Of a stretch of 64,000 nt of DNA, positions 49,048 to 57,638 are shown piece after piece. The translations under genes were made by a program, and so were the position numbers. The stretch comes from Halorussus ruber (GTDB lineage: Archaea > Halobacteriota > Halobacteria > Halobacteriales > Haladaptataceae), in the NCBI RefSeq assembly GCF_004765785.1, contig NZ_SBIT01000001.1, positions 186,001-250,000 on the forward strand. Direction: 5' to 3'. Each line of letters opens with the position of its first letter. Within the stretch, counting starts at the first letter, position 1. The notes under the pieces are model-generated. The model was not told where the DNA came from, made no database searches, and saw only the letters and a program-made list of their open reading frames with translations.

Positions 49048-51126
49048 ATGGAGTTCGACGTTCCCGACGACCGGACAGGGGTCGGTATCTTCGACCCGAT
49101 CGAGAACGCTCGGTTCGAGTTGTACACGCCCGAACCAGTCGAACTCGAATCGGCCTCGACCGACCACTTCCACTTTCCGGTGACTCACGCGGTGAGATTC
49201 GACGCGACGGCGGTCGAGGTCCCGAAACTCGTCTCGACCGTGGTCCGGCGACACGACGGCGAGATGCTCGCCGACGCCACCGCGAGCGAAATCCAGACGT
49301 TCGGGAGCGGAACCTACCTCGTGGAACTCCAGAGTACGCCGATGAAACTCTACCTCACAGTCGACGGCCCGATGGAGGTCCACCCCGGCGAGACGTCGGT
49401 GACGGTCAAGTTCGGCCAGAACCGCCGCGTCCGGGTCGGCGCGCGGTCCTTCCACGAGCGCCCGGTCGGCACGATTACCGTGACCGACGACGTCGAGGAC
49501 CTCATGGCGGCGATGTCGTACTTCGGGTCCGCGCTCAAGACGACCACCTGCGAGCGGTCGTTTCCGACCCTTCGGGGCCATCCGCCCCGCATCGAGCGCG
49601 GCGAGGCGTTCGACGTGCTGGACGACATCGAAAAGGCCGACACGAACGTCGAACTCGTCCTCCCGCCCGACCGGGAACACGTCTACCCGGCCGCCTCGCT
49701 TTCGTACTACCTCGGCGCGGAGGTCGTTCCGGGGACAGACCCGCGACTCGTGGCGGGCGACTTCGAGTACTCGCTGGCCGGTTCGGGTGGCTACGAGGCC
49801 ACGGTGAATCGGGTCCTCAAGCAGGTGTTCTTCCTCGACTGCCTGACCCGGACCGAGGGCTACTACCCGGTCGAACTCCACGAGCGCGAGCAAGTCGAAC
49901 CCGAGGTAGACCTCGATTTCGCGGGCCTCTACGACCGGCCGCTGGTCGAGCAGTTGCCGGAATATCTCTCGGTCCCCTTCGAGGTCCTCGAACCCCACCT
50001 GCTGGACTGGCATCTGACGACCGACATCGTGCCGGTGGCCGAGAACGTGGCGGCGCTTCCCTACTTCGCCGACGAACTCTCGCTGCTGCGGACGCCCGAG
50101 AATCCCGAGGCCAGCGCGGTCGAACCCGCGATGGAGAGTGTCGAGGAGTTCACCCGGGCCGCGGTCGCCGCGGGCGATTTCACCCGGAGCGCCAGCGCCG
50201 ACGCCGACTGGGGCGACGACGAGATGTTTCAGGTCGACCCCGCCGAGACCGTCGAACACGCGTGGGTCGGCGAGGGCTATCCCATCAACGCCAACAAGGT
50301 CACCATCGACGCGCTCCACCGCGAGGCCGAGCGCACTCCGCCGGACGAGTCGGCCATCGAGGTCCACGTCGTCTGCAACGACCCGCGGATGGCCGAGGAG
50401 AACGCGGTCAGCGAGTTCTACGGCCTGCGCGATTTCGTGAACTACGACGTGACGATTCACGAGGAGACCACCGCAGCGGAACTCGCAAGCCTCCTCGAAG
50501 CGCCAGCCGACTTCCTGCACTACATCGGCCACGTGGACGAGGCGGGATTCCGGTGCGCCGACGGCTACCTCGACGCCGAGTCGCTCGATTCGGTGGGCGT
50601 CGAGGCCTTCCTGCTGAACGCCTGCCGGTCCTACGAGCAGGGCGCGACGCTGGTCGAGAAGGGGAGCCGCGGCGGCGTGGTCACCCTCGCCGAGGTGGTT
50701 CACTCCTCGGCGACGAAAATCGGCCGGGCGCTGGCGAGACTGTTGAATTCCGGTTTCTCGTTGCGCTCGGCGCTGAATGTTGCGAAGGAGGAAGTCGTGG
50801 TTGCTATCGAGTACGTTACTGTGGGGGATGGTGGTTTGACGCTGTGTGAGAATGATAGTGGTGCCCCTGTGAAGTTTCACGTTAATCAGCGTGAAAATGG
50901 CCCTCTGGTAGAGTACACAGTATACCTTAATTCCTCACATCGTATCGGTACCTTAACCCACTTTATCGCCGATAGCACGACTCACCATCTTGCTTCCGGT
51001 AAAGTCGGACCATTTCAACTGGATAAGGAAGAACTTGAGTCAATTCTTGATGAGGAACTAGAACCTGTCGAAGTCAACGGTGAACTTCGTTGGAGTAACG
51101 AAATCTCGGTTGCTGATTTTGAGTAA
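49048..51126 (+). CDS. CHAT-domain (caspase-like) protein, copy 1
   Basis: 692 residues. The N-terminal part (1 to about 440) is shared only with the copy at 55464, including LRGHPPRIERG and RTEGYYPVELHERE. The CHAT protease-like fold covers about 450-595: H491/H495 in FLHYIGHVDE and C526 in LNACRSYEQG are the expected His-Cys dyad. A C-terminal extension (about 597-692) ends in ELESILDEELEPVEVNGELR and more. From about 50770 the DNA becomes AT-richer (25 of 60 GC at 50881-50940, 40 of 60 at 50461-50520). CHAT enzymes are caspase relatives used in regulated cleavage or cell death. Followed by a RecA-like gene. Function here is inferred. Confidence 0.8.
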   Translation: MEFDVPDDRTGVGIFDPIENARFELYTPEPVELESASTDHFHFPVTHAVRFDATAVEVPKLVSTVVRRHDGEMLADATASEIQTFGSGTYLVELQSTPMKLYLTVDGPMEVHPGETSVTVKFGQNRRVRVGARSFHERPVGTITVTDDVEDLMAAMSYFGSALKTTTCERSFPTLRGHPPRIERGEAFDVLDDIEKADTNVELVLPPDREHVYPAASLSYYLGAEVVPGTDPRLVAGDFEYSLAGSGGYEATVNRVLKQVFFLDCLTRTEGYYPVELHEREQVEPEVDLDFAGLYDRPLVEQLPEYLSVPFEVLEPHLLDWHLTTDIVPVAENVAALPYFADELSLLRTPENPEASAVEPAMESVEEFTRAAVAAGDFTRSASADADWGDDEMFQVDPAETVEHAWVGEGYPINANKVTIDALHREAERTPPDESAIEVHVVCNDPRMAEENAVSEFYGLRDFVNYDVTIHEETTAAELASLLEAPADFLHYIGHVDEAGFRCADGYLDAESLDSVGVEAFLLNACRSYEQGATLVEKGSRGGVVTLAEVVHSSATKIGRALARLLNSGFSLRSALNVAKEEVVVAIEYVTVGDGGLTLCENDSGAPVKFHVNQRENGPLVEYTVYLNSSHRIGTLTHFIADSTTHHLASGKVGPFQLDKEELESILDEELEPVEVNGELRWSNEISVADFE

Positions 51127-51494
51127 TTCAAGGACCAGGGTTCATACCTGAGTGATTCGCCGCCGCATTTCCAGCCTGCGCCAAAACCAGACTCATCGTG
51201 AACAGGAAGCCAATCATTCGGGGGTGCCGTGCGAGTCGTTCGAGGGTTTCGCTCTGTGTCATGCATTCCGACACACCACCTGTCAGAAATTATAATTTTC
51301 TAAAGTATTCTAACCATGAAATATATGAGAAAAAGCCGATGATTTCAATTGAAGTAAATACTAAGTGGAAGTTAGAGCGAAAATGGTAAAAGTCTGTCTG
51401 ACAGTCCCACACTCGAAGCTGCGCCGAAATTCGTCTTCCCGAGCGCCGGAAATTCCGGAAATTTTATCTTAGGCACGTGTGACGAAATAAGCGT
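51127..51494 (+). other. AT-rich spacer and promoter between CHAT 1 and its partner
   Basis: No convincing gene; a 63-codon frame (51198-51389) has no helix or family features. The stretch 51285-51390 is AT-rich. GGAAATTTTAT (51457-51467) ends 27 bases before the ATG at 51495 and is the likely promoter core. The same 11-mer occurs before the partner gene of the second module (55157-55167, minus). Confidence 0.5.
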
Positions 51495-52184
51495 ATGACC
51501 GCAGAGCTACGGTTTCGCGGCGGCGGGACCAACCCCCGCTTCTCGAAGTGGCTCGCCAACCTCAAGCAGGTTGGGAGCAACATCCTCATCACGGGCGAGG
51601 TCCCCGACGCGGTCTCTGCGCGCGCTTCTCGGTCCTTCTTCGGACGCGAGGAGCGCCGGTTTCGAGTCCTCGGGCTGACCGACCAGTCGATTACCAGCGC
51701 CGAGGCCCGACTCCCCGACGAGACCTCCTCTGCGGACCCGACGACGTGGGTCATCGACCAGCGCCGTGGCGAGCGGTCGGTCCCCGCGACTGCGACGGGC
51801 GTCACCGACGAGTTGGACCCCTTGGAGACCGACGACGCCCGACAGCTCCGCGAGGAGATACAGACCGCCATCAGTTTCTACGACGAGCAAGCCGACGGTC
51901 TGGCCCCCGCGGAACTCCGCGTCGGCGTCGATTCGCTGTTCCCGCTGGTCGAGCGCGACCGCTCGGCGACCAAGCGCGTCCTGCGGACCCTCGGCGCGAC
52001 AGTCCGGGACGTTCACGGCATGGCCCACTACCACCTCCGCGTGCCCGCCGACGCCGACGTCGTCGAGGACCTCATGCACCTGTTCGACGCTCGGGTCGAA
52101 CTCCGCAAGCGACCTCGGCGAAACCCCGAACAGCGGTGGTACGCGCCCGAAATCGATGCCACGACGCCGTGGATGGAACTCTGA
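51495..52184 (+). CDS. P-loop-less RecA/KaiC-like protein (DUF7504-like), copy 1
   Basis: 229 residues. GSNILITGEVPDAVSARASR sits where a KaiC/RadA Walker A would be, but the GxxxxGK[T/S] pattern is absent. ELRVGVDSLFPLVERD resembles a Walker B strand, and VRDVHGMAHYHLRVPADADV is followed by a C-terminal strand region (ELRKRPRRNPEQRWYAPEID). A partner in the other module (54359) shares these features. It probably binds, but does not hydrolyse, a nucleotide, or acts as a scaffold. It lies downstream of the CHAT gene in both modules, so joint function is inferred. Confidence 0.7.
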   Translation: MTAELRFRGGGTNPRFSKWLANLKQVGSNILITGEVPDAVSARASRSFFGREERRFRVLGLTDQSITSAEARLPDETSSADPTTWVIDQRRGERSVPATATGVTDELDPLETDDARQLREEIQTAISFYDEQADGLAPAELRVGVDSLFPLVERDRSATKRVLRTLGATVRDVHGMAHYHLRVPADADVVEDLMHLFDARVELRKRPRRNPEQRWYAPEIDATTPWMEL

Positions 52185-52249
52185 CTGTCTGCCCGTCGCT
52201 CTCGGTCACTTCACGAACGTCTCGGGTTTCCCGTCAGTAACCGCCCAAG

Positions 52250-52312
52250 TATAGTCATTATCGTCTGGATAGCTAACAGTCCATAAAAGAGTCGGATAAC
52301 AGGGTATACTTG
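52250..52312 (+). promoter_or_regulatory. Promoter of the first AbrB-like gene
   Basis: GATAGCTAACAGTCCATAAA (52268-52287) is nearly the same as AATAGCTAAGAGTCCATAAC before the second gene. In both, CCATA lies 32-33 bases before the ATG. The box is likely TATA plus an operator half-site. Confidence 0.55.
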
Positions 52313-52486
52313 ATGAGCGACGACACAGAAGAGATACTCGGCACGACCAAAATTTCAGACCGCTGGCGCATCAGCCTCCTCGAGGCAGTCCGAGCGGAAC
52401 TCGCGTCCGACGGCGCGGAAGTCGAGGAGGGCGACCTCCTCGTCTACAAGATGGTGGATGGAAAAATCGTCATCGAATTGGCGTAA
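52313..52486 (+). CDS. AbrB/SpoVT-like transcription regulator, small, copy 1
   Basis: 57 residues: MSDDTEEILGTTKISDRWRI, then SLLEAVRAELASDGAEVEEG and a strand KMVDGKIVIELA. The swapped-hairpin AbrB layout (short strands around the WRISLLEAV segment, D-G-x-I-V-I-E end) is typical of haloarchaeal AbrB-family proteins, which bind DNA as dimers. Shares most residues with the gene 94 bases downstream. The promoter box is also copied, suggesting cross- or autoregulation. Confidence 0.75.
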   Translation: MSDDTEEILGTTKISDRWRISLLEAVRAELASDGAEVEEGDLLVYKMVDGKIVIELA

Positions 52487-52500
52487 TCATCGAAGAAACG

Positions 52501-52558
52501 TTAGCTATTCCACCTCTTTTGGGAATATAGTCGAAATAGCTAAGAGTCCATAACAACA
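52501..52558 (+). promoter_or_regulatory. Operator inverted repeat and promoter of the second AbrB-like gene
   Basis: TTAGCTATT (52501-52509) and AATAGCTAA (52535-52543) form a perfect 9-base inverted repeat with 25 bases between them, and the right half overlaps the promoter box ending AGTCCATAAC. This is a good candidate binding site for a dimeric AbrB-type protein. Confidence 0.6.
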
Positions 52559-52580
52559 CCGATACCGAAGACGGGCGTAG

Positions 52581-52760
52581 ATGAGCGAAGAAGATTCCGA
52601 TGAGAAAATACTCGGCACGACGACAGTCACCCAGCGATGGCGAATCAGTCTCATCAAGGCCGTCCGCGAGGAGTTCGCCGACGACGGTCTCGACGTAGAG
52701 GAGGGCGACCGCCTCGTCTACAAGCTTCGAGACGGCCAAATCGTCATCGAACCGGCCTGA
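52581..52760 (+). CDS. AbrB/SpoVT-like transcription regulator, small, copy 2
   Basis: 59 residues: MSEEDSDEKILGTTTVTQRW, then RISLIKAVREEFADDGLDVE and EGDRLVYKLRDGQIVIEPA. It is a paralogue of the gene at 52313, with the same LGTT...RWRISL start and the V-Y-K-x-x-D-G-x-I-V-I-E end. It lies 102 bases upstream of gcvT on the same strand and may control that operon or the flanking CHAT modules. Confidence 0.75.
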   Translation: MSEEDSDEKILGTTTVTQRWRISLIKAVREEFADDGLDVEEGDRLVYKLRDGQIVIEPA

Positions 52761-52862
52761 GAGAGCGACCCGGTTCGAGTTCCAGTAGTTCACTAGTAAT
52801 CGAGTAATTGTCGAGCGCCCGGAAGACAAAGCATTACGTACCGGGCGTACAACCCTTTCAGT

Positions 52863-53960
52863 ATGACCCTTCGGAAGCCGCCACTGCGCGACGTTCACGC
52901 CGCCGAGGGAGCGACGTTTACCGAGTTCGGTGGGTGGGACATGCCCGTCGAGTTCGACTCCATCAAGGTCGAACACCGCGCGGTCCGCGAGGAGGCGGGC
53001 ATCTTCGACGTGTCCCACATGGGCCAAATCGAGGTGTCCGGACCGGACGCCGACGAACTGATGCAGCGGCTCACCACCAACGACGTGAGCGAACTCGGTC
53101 ACGGCGATTCCCACTACTCGATGATACCCGACGAGGAGGGGACGGTTCTGGACGACACCGTGGTCTACCGGCTTCCGGCCGACCACGACGCCGAGTTCCT
53201 CTTCGTACCCAACGCGGGCCACGACGAGCAGATGCACCAGCGCTGGACCGACCACCGCGACGAGTGGGACCTCGATGCGACGGTCCACAACGCCACCGAC
53301 GAGTACTGCATGTACGCGATTCAGGGGCCGGACGCGCCGGACCTCGTGAACTCGGCGACCGACGACTCGGTCCTCGACATCTCGAAGTTCGAGGGCGAGT
53401 ACGCCGAGTTCGCTGGCGCTGACTGCTGGACCGCCCGAACCGGCTACACCGGCGAGGACGGATTCGAAATCATCGTCCCGACCGACGACGCGGAGGCCGT
53501 CTGGGACTGCTTCGACTGCCAGCCCTGCGGCCTCGGCGCGCGCGACACCCTCCGGATGGAACAGGGCTTCCTGCTCTCCGGGCAGGACTTCGACGCCGAG
53601 GACAACCCCCGAAACCCCTACGAGGCGGGCGTCGGGTGGACGGTGAAACTCGACACCGAGTTCGTCGGCCGCGACGCGCTGGAGCAGGCCAAAGAAGAGG
53701 GCGTCGAAGAAGAGTTCGTCGGCATCAAACTCGTGGACCGCGGCGTCCCGCGCCACGGCTACGACGTGACCGACACCGACGACCACGTCATCGGCGAGGT
53801 CACCAGCGGGACGATGAGTCCGACCCTCGGCGAACCCATCGCGCTCGGCTACGTACCGACCGACTCCTCGGACCCCGGCACGGTCGTCCGTGTCGTGGTC
53901 CGCGGCCAGTCGAAAAAAGCTAAGATTGCGAGCACGCCATTCCTCAACGACGACCAATGA
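52863..53960 (+). CDS. gcvT: Glycine cleavage system T protein (aminomethyltransferase)
   Basis: 365 residues. Transfers the methylene group from the lipoyl arm of GcvH to tetrahydrofolate or the archaeal pterin. Family features are [56 protein letters not shown] and [15 protein letters not shown]. Overlaps gcvH (ATGA), so translation is coupled. Two AbrB-like genes precede it. The other system genes (gcvPA-gcvPB) are separated from it by the second CHAT module. Confidence 0.95.
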
Positions 53961-54340
53961 GCTTCGAAGTTCCCGACGACCGAAAGTATCTCGAATCGCA
54001 CGAGTGGGTAGACGACGCGGACGACACCGCCAGAGTCGGCATCTCCGACTTCGCGCAGGACGAACTCGGCGACGTGGTGTTCGTCGAACTCCCGAGCGAG
54101 GGCGACGAACTCTCCGCGGGCGACGAGTTCGGCGTCGTCGAGTCCATCAAGGCCGTCTCGGACCTCTACTCGCCGGTCAACGGCACCGTCACCGCGGTCA
54201 ACGACGCGCTGGAGGACCAGCCGGAACTCGTCAACGAAGACCCCTTCGGCGAGGGCTGGATGATGGAAGTCGAGCTTGCCGACGACAGCGGGCTCGACGA
54301 GTTGCTGAGTGCCGAGGAGTACCGAGAACAGATAGAATAG
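53957..54340 (+). CDS. gcvH: Glycine cleavage system H protein
   Basis: 127 residues. Carries the lipoyl-lysine that shuttles the aminomethyl group; lipoylation site K65 in [34 protein letters not shown] is typical of GcvH. It overlaps the gcvT stop and faces the partner gene of CHAT module 2, with 18 bases between their ends. Confidence 0.96.
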
Positions 54341-54358
54341 TCAGAACAGCGCGTCGAG

Positions 54359-55120
54359 TCAAATCGACGCCCAGCCGATGGTCAGGTCTCGACTCGGGAC
54401 GTGCCATCGTTGCTTGCCGACTCGGTCGTTGTCGGCCGAGTCGTCCAACTGAATTTCTACGATAGCGTCCATATCGTCGGCAAACCGCTGTACCAAGTCG
54501 CTATCGTACGGTTTCGGCAGAATATAGTGTGCCATAGCGTCGTAGTCGCGGACGTAGCTCCCGACGATGCGGAGACACCGCCGAACGACGTCCTCGCCGT
54601 AGTGGTCGAGAAGCGGCTCTAGCGAGTCGATTCCTACCCGAAGGTCGGCCGGGTGGAGCGAGTCGGCTCGATTTGCGAACTCCTCGATAGCCTCGATTAG
54701 CGCGGCCTGAAGCCCGGCCAACTGCGGGTCGGCGATACGAGTCTCCTTGACGCCCGCGAGATCGACCGGAGTGGTCGGGTCCGCCGCGGCCGTGACCGAC
54801 CGGAGCGCCCCGGCGTGATTGAGAACGTGGGTCGTCTCGCCGACCGGTCGCGGGGACTCGCTTGGGTCGGGAAGTCGCTCGGCGATGCTCTCGGGGGTGG
54901 CGTCCGTAACCGCCAGCGTTCGATAGCGAACCGCGTCGTCGTCCCCGAGCATCCGCGAACTCGTCTGGGTGAACAGTTCCCGCGGGGCGTCGCCGACGAC
55001 GAGCAGATTACAGCCGGTGGACTTCAACTCGTTCAGAAGACTGAGAAAGCTCTGTAGGTCGTCGTCGGGGGGCGATTCGTCGGACCCGCGCTCGAAATCG
55101 CGGGGAGTTGGGGACGACAT
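54359..55120 (-). CDS. P-loop-less RecA/KaiC-like protein (DUF7504-like), copy 2
   Basis: 253 residues from MSSPTPRDFERGSDESPPDD. A Met at 55141 lies too close to the promoter core GGAAATTTTAT (55157-55167) to be the first start. The start of the RecA-like fold is GCNLLVVGDAPRELFTQTSS, again without a P-loop. LRVGIDSLEPLLDHYGEDVV is the Walker B-like strand, and VRDYDAMAHYILPKPYDSDL matches copy 1. Co-oriented with and downstream of CHAT 2. Copy 1 and copy 2 align through most of the length. Confidence 0.7.
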   Translation of the reverse strand: MSSPTPRDFERGSDESPPDDDLQSFLSLLNELKSTGCNLLVVGDAPRELFTQTSSRMLGDDDAVRYRTLAVTDATPESIAERLPDPSESPRPVGETTHVLNHAGALRSVTAAADPTTPVDLAGVKETRIADPQLAGLQAALIEAIEEFANRADSLHPADLRVGIDSLEPLLDHYGEDVVRRCLRIVGSYVRDYDAMAHYILPKPYDSDLVQRFADDMDAIVEIQLDDSADNDRVGKQRWHVPSRDLTIGWASI

Positions 55121-55463
55121 AGGTGTTGGTATGACTGTCATTTTCAGAGGAAAGGTATAAAATTTCCCTCTGAGTATCAGTAGATATAATAACGGTTCTT
55201 TCTCGTAAGCGAACATCTGGCTGAAATCTCAGCCACAAAGGCGAACTCCGAGGTTATTTGAGCACTGCAGGAAGTTGGACTATAGTAGAAAGTTGGAAGG
55301 TGCTACGTTCAATAACATCGAACAGGATGGCACAGTTTGACACTACGGTTTGGTCTCGTGTGACAGCCCTTGTCCTAGAAATTGCTTGGATATTCACACT
55401 AGCTTTAAATTATAGCGACATTGGGACTACCATTTGTTGCGCAAAGCCGGGGCCATAATTCAC
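55121..55463 (-). other. AT-rich spacer between CHAT 2 and its partner
   Basis: Contains the promoter core 55157-55167 (read on minus). A 66-codon frame on the other strand (55258-55458) has one hydrophobic stretch but no start context or family features, so it is not called. No direct homology to the spacer of module 1 is visible beyond the promoter 11-mer. Confidence 0.45.
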
Positions 55464-57638
55464 TTACTCAAGGTACCCACCACTCCAAACTAATGCTTGG
55501 TGAGAGATTAATGGATATTGATAGCTAGATATTTGTTCATTGAGATTGGAAAATGTAGTTACAACACTAGTATATTTGCCAACAGCGACGTAATACTTTT
55601 CGTCATTTAGAAAAGCAGGTTTAAAATTCGTCCCAAGCCCGTATCCTTGAGCAGGGTACGCATAGGGAATCACACTAATTTTCTGTGCATCCCTATCAAT
55701 ACTCTTGACATGGCATAGCGTTGGCATTCCACTTTCACATTGCGCCACAACAACACTAGGATTTCCGACAACCACGTATCTGTCACCAATCGAAGTGTAT
55801 TCACGGATAATTTTCATCGCGGCCCCGATACCGAATCCGTAGTGAAGCAACCGAGCTAACGTCTCGCCAACCTCGACCGCGCCGGAGTTGAACAAGTCCG
55901 CGAGGCTCACGATGGCGGCGCTCGCTCCCGCCTTCACTAACTCGATGCCTTGATGATGCGACCGACAGCCATTCAGAAGCACAGTCGTCGCGTTGACTTC
56001 CTCGACAGTTCCGGCGTCCAGAACACCGTCCGGACACTCGAAACCCTGCCCGTCGATGTGGCCGATAAAGTGAAACACGTCGTGGTCCTCGGCGAACAAC
56101 TCTCGTAACTCTCCGGTCGAGACGCCGACTTTGGAGGTCACGCTGGCCGGTACGTCGTCGCGGCTACCGTAGATTTCTCCGACCGACTCCCACTCCTCGC
56201 GCATCCGGTCGTCGTTGCAGACCACCGCGATGTCGATGGTCCCGTCGGATGGCTCGGGCGTCTCGTTGGTGAACGCCGCCTCGATAAGTTTCGTCCCGCG
56301 AGTCGGCGTGCCCTCGCCGACCCACGCCTGTTCGAGGGCGTCAACCTCCGGAAGCGTCACGTACTCGTCCAAGTCCGGAACGCCCGAGGCAGAGCCTCCC
56401 GACTCGCCGTCTCGACGCAGATTCGGAGCGTCTACCGACCGGACGAAATCCTCGCCTGCGGCGACCTGCTCGCTGGCACTCGGCCGCCGGAGAAACGACC
56501 CGAGCGCGTCGTCTAGCTCCTCGTTGATTTCGGACTGCTCCGCCGACTCGTCGCGCTCGACTTTCGGCCGCACCAGCGACAGGTCGTTGACGAGGTACGG
56601 CAGGAGTTCGCCCACTTCGGGGCCGGGGTTCCGCTCGGTGTGCGTGACGCGATGCCACGGCGAGGAGATGGCCTCGATTGCCTCGTCGGGCACCGAGAGA
56701 TAGGTGGCGAGTCGCTCGGCGGGCGAGGCCTCGTAGAGGCCCGCGAAGTCCAAGTCTACGTCCGCGCGGGATTCGAGGACGTTCCGCTCGTGGAGTTCGT
56801 CGGGGTACAGACCCTCGGTCCTGACCACGCAGTCGAGGAAGAAGACGCGCTTGAGCAGGGTTTCTGTCGCGTCGGCGATTTCGGCCGGTTCGTCACCGAG
56901 ATAGTGCGCGGCCCCGCTGTCGGCGGTGACGTGAGCGCCGTCGCCGGGAACGACCTCTGCGCCGAGATAGTACGCCAGCGGAGCCACGGTATAGACCGCC
57001 CAGTACTCAGACGGTACTGTTATCCGAATTCCCGTCTCGGGCACGTCGATGTCCGAAGGAACGTCGAGTTCGTCTCCGCGTTCGATGCGCGGCGGGTGTC
57101 CGCGCAACGTCGGCCACGCACGCTCTGGCGAGAGAGTCTTGAGCGCCGACGGGAACATCGAGACGGCTTTCATCATCGCTTCGGGGTCGTCCGGAACCGT
57201 AATAGTCTCCCCCGGCGCGCTGTGGTACGACCGCGCGCCGATTTCGATAGCGGCGTCGTCGCTAAACTCGAAGACGACCTCCTCAGTTGTCGCCTCGATG
57301 CGGACGCGACCCGAGACGCGCAGATACACTTTGATAGGTGAGTGGAGTTCCAGCAGGTAGTCGTCGTCTGCGAGTTCGTGTGTGGAGGGACTATCGACCG
57401 ACCGCAACGGGTCGCCATCGGGCGTCCGAACGTCTACCGGGAGAAGATACGGAAGACGAATCTCGCCGACCGAAATCCGGCAGGCCGTCTCGACTGGAAA
57501 GGCAAACGGCTCAGTATCGGAAGGCGTCGGGTCTGCCGGTTCGTCCGTGCGGAGCGAGAAGTGGCGAGTTTCGACCGGGTCGATGATGTCGAGACCGGTC
57601 TCGTCGGACGGCACCTCGAACCTCGGATGAAGAGACAT
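55464..57638 (-). CDS. CHAT-domain (caspase-like) protein, copy 2
   Basis: 724 residues. Same layout as copy 1. The N-terminal region has WPTLRGHPPRIERGDELDV, RTEGLYPDELHERNVLES and LDFAGLYEASPAERLATYLS. The CHAT dyad is H523/H527 in VFHFIGHIDGQG and C558 in LLNGCRSHHQG. An insert of low-complexity residues around 370-420 is absent from copy 1. The C-terminal extension (about 630-724) has GYGLGTNFKPAFLNDEKYYV and ends in LISHQALVWSGGYLE. The last 340 bases are AT-rich (22 of 60 GC at 55561-55620, 34 of 60 at 56041-56100), with the break at the homologous point. Placed between gcvH and gcvPA on the opposite strand. Confidence 0.8.
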   Translation of the reverse strand: MSLHPRFEVPSDETGLDIIDPVETRHFSLRTDEPADPTPSDTEPFAFPVETACRISVGEIRLPYLLPVDVRTPDGDPLRSVDSPSTHELADDDYLLELHSPIKVYLRVSGRVRIEATTEEVVFEFSDDAAIEIGARSYHSAPGETITVPDDPEAMMKAVSMFPSALKTLSPERAWPTLRGHPPRIERGDELDVPSDIDVPETGIRITVPSEYWAVYTVAPLAYYLGAEVVPGDGAHVTADSGAAHYLGDEPAEIADATETLLKRVFFLDCVVRTEGLYPDELHERNVLESRADVDLDFAGLYEASPAERLATYLSVPDEAIEAISSPWHRVTHTERNPGPEVGELLPYLVNDLSLVRPKVERDESAEQSEINEELDDALGSFLRRPSASEQVAAGEDFVRSVDAPNLRRDGESGGSASGVPDLDEYVTLPEVDALEQAWVGEGTPTRGTKLIEAAFTNETPEPSDGTIDIAVVCNDDRMREEWESVGEIYGSRDDVPASVTSKVGVSTGELRELFAEDHDVFHFIGHIDGQGFECPDGVLDAGTVEEVNATTVLLNGCRSHHQGIELVKAGASAAIVSLADLFNSGAVEVGETLARLLHYGFGIGAAMKIIREYTSIGDRYVVVGNPSVVVAQCESGMPTLCHVKSIDRDAQKISVIPYAYPAQGYGLGTNFKPAFLNDEKYYVAVGKYTSVVTTFSNLNEQISSYQYPLISHQALVWSGGYLE

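Follow-up and report, generated by a model that had tools for sequence, protein, structure and literature searches.

A short peptide with a hypervariable end, encoded beside CHAT-family proteins in haloarchaea, looks like part of a lock-and-key recognition system

The window that we analyzed is a stretch of 64,000 nucleotides from the genome of the haloarchaeon Halorussus ruber. Positions 49048-57638 of the window hold two related gene modules on either side of gcvT and gcvH. Each module encodes a CHAT (caspase-like) protein, a protein of the family DUF7504 and, between the two, a short peptide of the DUF7503 type whose gene is convergent with the CHAT gene. We find that the constant partner of CHAT is the peptide, not DUF7504, and that the CHAT-DUF7503 pair looks like an unrecognized archaeal "lock-and-key" system for signalling or self-recognition.

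CHAT1 (692 amino acids; 49048-51126, forward strand) and CHAT2 (724 amino acids; 55464-57638, reverse strand) are 40% identical over 644 residues (E = 2e-132), and DUF7504-1 (51495-52184, forward strand) and DUF7504-2 (253 amino acids; 54359-55120, reverse strand) are 33% identical (E = 5e-33). An earlier note, made from the sequence alone, had described two homologous modules in inverted orientation at this place, and these comparisons bear it out. It was also right that the modules enclose gcvT-gcvH and that module 2 parts these genes from gcvPA-gcvPB. (The genome carries nine CHAT genes, two of them in these modules, and 18 DUF7504 genes.)

Between the CHAT gene and the gene of its RecA-like neighbor, the note had seen an AT-rich spacer with a promoter. 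The promoter stands: the 11-mer GGAAATTTTAT (51457-51467 on the forward strand in module 1) is common to both modules, where it precedes the ATG at 51495 by 38 nt and the ATG at 55120 by 47 nt, and is a probable TATA element. Because it sits where a haloarchaeal TATA element belongs, 55120 is most likely the start of DUF7504-2, and a longer start at 55216 (285 amino acids) is disfavored. What the note overlooked is that each spacer also contains a small open reading frame that converges on the 3' end of the CHAT gene. In module 1 it encodes a peptide of 44 amino acids, MTQSETLERLARHPRMIGFLFTMSLVLAQAGNAAANHSGMNPGP (51128-51262, reverse strand), which matches Pfam DUF7503 (E = 1.3e-17), and its stop codon is 1 nt from that of CHAT1. 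In module 2 it encodes a peptide of 43 amino acids, MAQFDTTVWSRVTALVLEIAWIFTLALNYSDIGTTICCAKPGP (55327-55458, forward strand), with 5 nt between the stops. Peptide 2 is a divergent relative of peptide 1 and falls below the Pfam cut-off for DUF7503.

Neither CHAT protein has a matching model in Pfam (its CHAT model included), NCBIfam or PADLOC, and no meaningful match to CHAT emerged when solved structures were searched with sequence profiles; one homologue, on a Halorussus plasmid, is annotated as "CHAT domain-containing". The name is correct by fold, because the AlphaFold2 model of CHAT1 (83 sequences; mean predicted local distance difference test score, or pLDDT, of 90.4) matches separase (Foldseek, 2.4e-07), gingipain R (8e-07) and SAVED-CHAT (2.3e-06; 206 columns aligned at 3.7 Å). 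The His-Cys dyad lies where the note had put it, at His495 (50530-50532) and Cys526 (50623-50625) in CHAT1 and at His527 (56058-56060) and Cys558 (55965-55967) in CHAT2. The note had named loss of the dyad among homologues as evidence against its proposal, but the dyad is invariant in all 88 homologues that span the region, as are His491 and Cys503. Given the modelled caspase/separase-like fold and the conserved dyad, we assign these proteins to the CHAT protease family (clan CD) and predict that they are proteolytic.

Both RecA-like proteins belong to Pfam DUF7504 (E = 8.5e-51 and 6.4e-46). The structure model of DUF7504-1 is confident (pLDDT 91.6) and its top Foldseek matches are to the CI domain of KaiC. 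As the note had said, there is no P-loop: the Walker A motif is missing (no GK[ST]), and the first strand is followed by NILITGEVPDAVSA or NLLVVGDAPRELFT. Compared with the KaiC family, then, DUF7504 has the CI-like fold as a stand-alone single domain, yet lacks Walker A.

Of 242 haloarchaeal genomes searched with a profile built from the nine CHAT paralogues of the window's genome, 223 hold relatives, as do 65 of 73 genera. Beyond the haloarchaeal class there were matches in just 4 genomes of one family. These align only up to about position 620 of the 706 in the profile, and we found no convergent peptide of the DUF7503 type beside them. (In L310-L312, distant CHAT relatives from the non-haloarchaeal family f19, we could not find the HxxGH motif, and their C-terminus bears no relation to that of CHAT; the catalytic residues may be altered. 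In Haladaptatus halobius, the CHAT gene at L195 is split over several frames and is probably a decayed copy.) We rejected a phage or plasmid origin: CHAT was not found among the phages or viral contigs searched, and the 25 plasmid records that carry it are all haloarchaeal and all predicted to be non-mobilizable. Given the lack of a PADLOC match, we also rejected a known defense system.

The DUF7503 peptide is the constant partner of CHAT

A peptide gene lies beside 141 of 158 unique CHAT genes. It is always on the opposite strand, with a median of 4 nt between the stop codons, and 133 of the 141 peptides end in Gly-Pro. The linkage holds in both directions. When we scanned 2.3 Mb of loci, 156 peptide matches fell at CHAT 3' ends and 2 fell elsewhere; and when we searched whole genomes starting from DUF7503, a convergent CHAT gene was present at 29 of 30 loci. 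Across 97 sampled haloarchaeal genomes, 80 have both CHAT and DUF7503, 6 have CHAT only, none has DUF7503 only and 11 have neither (Fisher p = 1e-10). One peptide of the DUF7503 type (G000:C10:168056-168178, at L279; ..VVVSSGGATTGP) has no recognizable CHAT gene beside it and is apparently convergent with another gene.

The peptides are not chance open reading frames, as both the whole-locus control (156 versus 2) and codon statistics attest. At nine Halorubrum loci, codon differences in the body of the peptide are mostly synonymous (235 synonymous, 64 nonsynonymous), those in the six residues before Gly-Pro are mostly nonsynonymous (63 and 130), and those in Gly-Pro itself are all synonymous (47 and 0). 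This shows that the peptide is translated and selected at the protein level. Furthermore, the AT content upstream of the peptide's ATG peaks at 0.86 at position -36, which is the promoter position. (In another Halorussus genome, G485, we had considered an AT-rich intergenic repeat as a leader, but it proved to be the peptide gene plus its promoter.)

In contrast, DUF7504 is not the constant partner that the earlier note had taken it for. Among 79 named CHAT loci, it is nearby in 42 and missing from 37. A RecA-like family found mainly without CHAT neighbors, which the note had set down as an observation that would count against it, is largely what the window's genome shows, with 10 of its 18 DUF7504 genes away from CHAT. 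At least 67 of the 155 CHAT places listed have a listed CHAT-type DUF7504 gene within 3 kb. The note's shared module order holds for the two modules of the window, but this order (CHAT and then DUF7504) occurs in six of the 67 listed pairs; the commonest arrangement among them is the reverse, with DUF7504 directly upstream of CHAT on the same strand (54 of 67).

A HalX-type receiver gene lies convergent downstream of DUF7504-CHAT at L094, L111, L140, L144, L127, L128 and L137. The presence of such receivers near DUF7504-CHAT in several families suggests an older shared neighborhood.

Joint variation of the CHAT tail and the peptide end

The earlier note also missed that the C-terminal tail of CHAT is hypervariable. 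In the last 94 or so residues, the mean column identity is 0.27-0.30, versus 0.52-0.58 in the CHAT domain, and the GC content drops from 66% in the core to 52% in the tail, with a sharp fall at about residues 605-620. The AT-rich tail comprises residues 605-692 in CHAT1 (50860-51123, forward strand) and about residues 637-724 in CHAT2 (55464-55730, reverse strand); we propose that it is a recognition region. For 59 pairs of proteins that share at least 90% identity in the CHAT domain, identity is 0.89 in the N-terminal core and 0.48 in the tail. Nevertheless, the tails can be aligned with each other, with G634 and P673 conserved.

The peptide has a conserved body and a variable end. Its roughly 44 residues open with a short N-terminal part that closes with H/N-P-R/K-M. 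A hydrophobic stretch and an A/V-x-A motif come next, and after them a single residue, the six variable positions and Gly-Pro. Counting back from the end, position -10 is small in 90% of the peptides and position -12 is mostly A or V, which resembles the -1/-3 rule of signal peptidase. About 2 K/R residues precede the hydrophobic stretch and 0.17 follow it, and by this asymmetry the C-terminus should face outward. We compared peptides that end in Gly-Pro between loci, taking the pairs in which the similarity of the CHAT cores is 0.85 or higher. Positions -1 and -2 are identical in 100% of these pairs, positions -3 to -8 in 32-65%, and positions -9 and -10 in 90-94%. The variable hexapeptide is HSGMNP in peptide 1 (codons at 51137-51154, reverse strand) and ICCAKP in peptide 2 (55432-55449, forward strand). 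Overall, 128 of 133 hexapeptides are distinct, as are all nine in the window's genome.

Since the CHAT gene and the peptide gene run toward each other, the tail and the hexapeptide lie side by side as a single variable block. The DNA of Halorubrum loci is about 0.9 identical until 300 nt before the CHAT stop codon; identity is 0.45-0.54 across the tail and reaches 0.92 in the body of the peptide. The two halves of the block also vary together. With divergence in the core and N-terminal regions removed, the similarity of the tails is correlated with the similarity of the peptides (partial Mantel r = 0.41, 0 of 2,000 permutations). Among 107 close pairs, tail similarity tracks that of the hexapeptide (r = 0.58), and there is no such correlation for the body of the peptide (r = 0.03). 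At L114, L189 and L213, the tails are alike and the peptides have the same end, AYAVGTSGP.

One genome shows that the block can be replaced or duplicated via conserved arms. In both modules of Halorussus G485, an extra 3' piece of a CHAT gene with its own tail lies between CHAT and DUF7504. These orphan cassettes (L242, 5724-6599 and 11705-12427) comprise the catalytic arm and a different tail. Arm identity is 95% across 413 nt and 89% across 622 nt, and the cassette in module 1 also comes with a repeated peptide region (89-100% identical). We do not think that silent cassette arrays like those of Rhs loci are the usual source of the variation, as orphan cassettes accompany just 2 of 174 CHAT genes, both in this genome.

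A candidate peptide ligand and receptor protease

We think it probable, if by a small measure, that each module encodes a peptide ligand and a receptor protease with pherotype-like specificity. The product of the DUF7503 gene would be a pre-peptide that carries a Sec-type signal, and cleavage after A/V-x-A would release a C-terminal peptide of about nine residues (one residue, the hexapeptide and Gly-Pro). The tail of CHAT would recognize the peptide of its own partner, and the His-Cys protease would thereby be switched on or off. DUF7504, with its KaiC-like fold and no P-loop, may be an accessory signalling partner at about half of the loci. The variable block is flanked by the CHAT catalytic core on one side and the signal-peptide codons on the other; with the tail and the hexapeptide in one contiguous block, both specificities could change together, as those of pherotypes do. 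The output might be the sensing of density or kin, or else regulated proteolysis or cell death. Of the functions that the earlier note had floated, signalling gains support. More specifically, the mature peptides might be a family of genetically encoded haloarchaeal pheromones, freed by the removal of a signal peptide and received by the hypervariable tail of CHAT, which we offer tentatively as quite possible, just short of probable.

If this is correct, we know of no earlier peptide-pheromone or pherotype system from archaea, nor of one whose receptor is itself a caspase-like protease. The recognition of kin or density would feed into regulated proteolysis or cell death, and each cell would have many orthogonal channels. 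Little is understood of how archaeal cells communicate, and archaea would gain a rich language of peptide signals, with over 120 predicted specificities and up to nine per genome. The proposal also offers a function for two Pfam families of unknown function, DUF7503 and DUF7504, which no paper names in the literature that we searched. As Haloferax volcanii is a genetic model and carries DUF7503, the idea can readily be tested.

In the agr and comQXPA loci of bacteria, contiguous hypervariable DNA spans the ligand and the specificity region of the receptor, between conserved flanks. The hypervariable block here similarly covers the ligand and a putative receptor region, the tail. For pherotypes, see PMC4408185. 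Unlike agr and comQXPA, the CHAT loci have no processing membrane protease, histidine kinase, or modified or cyclic peptide, and the presumed receptor region forms one protein with a caspase-like protease. (No histidine kinase or peptide-modifying membrane protein is constantly linked to the CHAT loci, and HalX-type receivers are present at some only.) The RRNPP systems of Firmicutes and their phages (Rap-Phr, PlcR-PapR and AimR-AimP) also have an adjacent gene for a short pre-peptide with hypervariable C-terminal residues, and many orthogonal paralogous pairs per genome. Their pre-peptides have a Sec-type signal, and the DUF7503 peptides, adjacent to 141 of 158 CHAT genes, might have one as well, to judge from the -3/-1 pattern and the charge asymmetry. 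RRNPP receptors are TPR proteins of Gram-positive bacteria (PMC10075063). Those receptors have 250-500 amino acids; the receptor proposed here is a CHAT protease of about 700 amino acids, with no TPR match in Pfam and a modelled secondary structure that is not an all-helical TPR array. The archaeal host, the convergent genes and the Gly-Pro end of the peptide are further differences. By analogy, then, the CHAT-peptide pair may work like the RRNPP and agr/com systems, but it is a member of neither. The fold and the His-Cys dyad are shared with SAVED-CHAT, the TPR-CHAT of Craspase and separase, and what sets these proteins apart is their own N-terminal region of about 400 residues, the hypervariable tail, the peptide partner and the lack of a Pfam match.

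Several observations weigh against a peptide ligand. Across all loci, the partial correlation is weak once the body of the peptide is controlled for (r = 0.12; 0 of 1,000 permutations). Because the tail and the hexapeptide are contiguous, co-transfer alone would allow them to co-vary, so the co-variation supports binding but does not prove it. As signal peptides go, the N-region is long and acidic, the peptide of module 2 lacks a clear A-x-A, and we detected no peptide beside 17 CHAT genes. A cytosolic CHAT protein would require a peptide importer, and none is linked to these genes. Finally, the one haloarchaeal quorum signal that has been studied in detail, that of H. volcanii, is proteinase K-resistant and is regarded as a small molecule (PMC12240190), and we claim no link between this signal, which induces disk formation, and DUF7503.

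Alternatively, the peptide could be a polymorphic inhibitor or antitoxin: it would stay unsecreted, bound to the membrane or to CHAT, and its hexapeptide-Gly-Pro end would dock on the tail and silence a toxic protease. The variable block would then behave like a toxin tip with its matching immunity. This would also account for the tight linkage and the co-variation, it fits the several orthogonal copies per genome, and the downstream 3' CHAT cassettes in both modules of G485 recall the displaced tips of Rhs and CDI toxins. Those toxins also have a GC-rich core and an exchangeable AT-rich C-terminal end, but the CHAT tails are small and are alignable variants of one domain rather than unrelated toxins, the partner is a signal-bearing peptide, and the orphan cassettes are rare. 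Furthermore, immunity proteins normally vary along their whole length, while here just six residues past a signal-cleavage-like site vary and the hydrophobic body is conserved. We consider an inhibitor unlikely, though still credible.

It seems decidedly less credible that the peptide is a small membrane protein cleaved by CHAT that acts as a pore-former or stress signal, with the tail as an exosite matched to the C-terminus of the substrate. Bacterial gasdermins are cut in this way by a neighboring caspase-like protease, and the conserved dyad and the constantly adjacent hydrophobic protein would fit. But a self-encoded substrate has no reason to be hypervariable, Gly-Pro is conserved at the very end, and a peptide of 44 amino acids with one hydrophobic segment is unlike a gasdermin.

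We judge an antiviral sensor to be similarly improbable. The tail would recognize varying viral proteins, the peptide would be a decoy or gatekeeper, and the protease would trigger abortive infection. Hypervariability would suit an arms race, each module is present or absent as a whole at a site in the chromosome (see below), and one of them contains an insert that resembles a restriction-modification system. However, neither PADLOC nor the phages and viral contigs gave a match, and near-universality in haloarchaea (223 of 242 genomes) is unlike the patchy distribution of defense islands. Last, we give very little credence to a reading close to that of the earlier note, in which CHAT and DUF7504 make up the working unit (for regulated cleavage, or for signalling in which the RecA-like protein is the sensor) and the peptide is incidental. 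The 54 of 67 listed pairs in one orientation and the confident KaiC fold would favor it, but 37 of 79 CHAT loci lack DUF7504 whereas the peptide is present at 141 of 158.

The modules at the gcv site

Each module is gained or lost as a unit, and the gcv genes are only its address. All 18 of the Halorussus genomes that we searched have gcvT. Module 1 is at the same site in six of them (the window's genome, G489, G492, G172, G485 and G162), and module 2 lies between gcvH and gcvPA in six (the window's genome, G494, G484, G485, G490 and G487). The remaining genomes are cleanly without the module at the gcv site, except for G488. This pattern of presence and absence rules out a tie to glycine cleavage, and it agrees with the earlier note's view of a functional system that is not tied to glycine metabolism.

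The note had also reported two AbrB-like regulators between the modules. They are present, as tandem small proteins upstream of gcvT (P0006 and P0009; 52313-52486 and 52581-52760). But because at least one of the two accompanies gcvT in almost every Halorussus genome, they are part of the gcv neighborhood and not of the module.

Two genomes have other genes at these sites. In G172 (L239), an insertion of about 3.3 kb lies within module 1, between CHAT1 and DUF7504-1; by eye, its products are a Dam-like adenine methylase, possibly a protein of restriction type, and a PadR-like regulator. In G488 (L245), about 6.5 kb of unrelated genes lie between gcvH and gcvPA, at the site of module 2, and by eye these encode a surface protein, a GTPase and a HAD hydrolase. 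Because G488 holds other genes there, the site of module 2 may be a hot spot for insertions.

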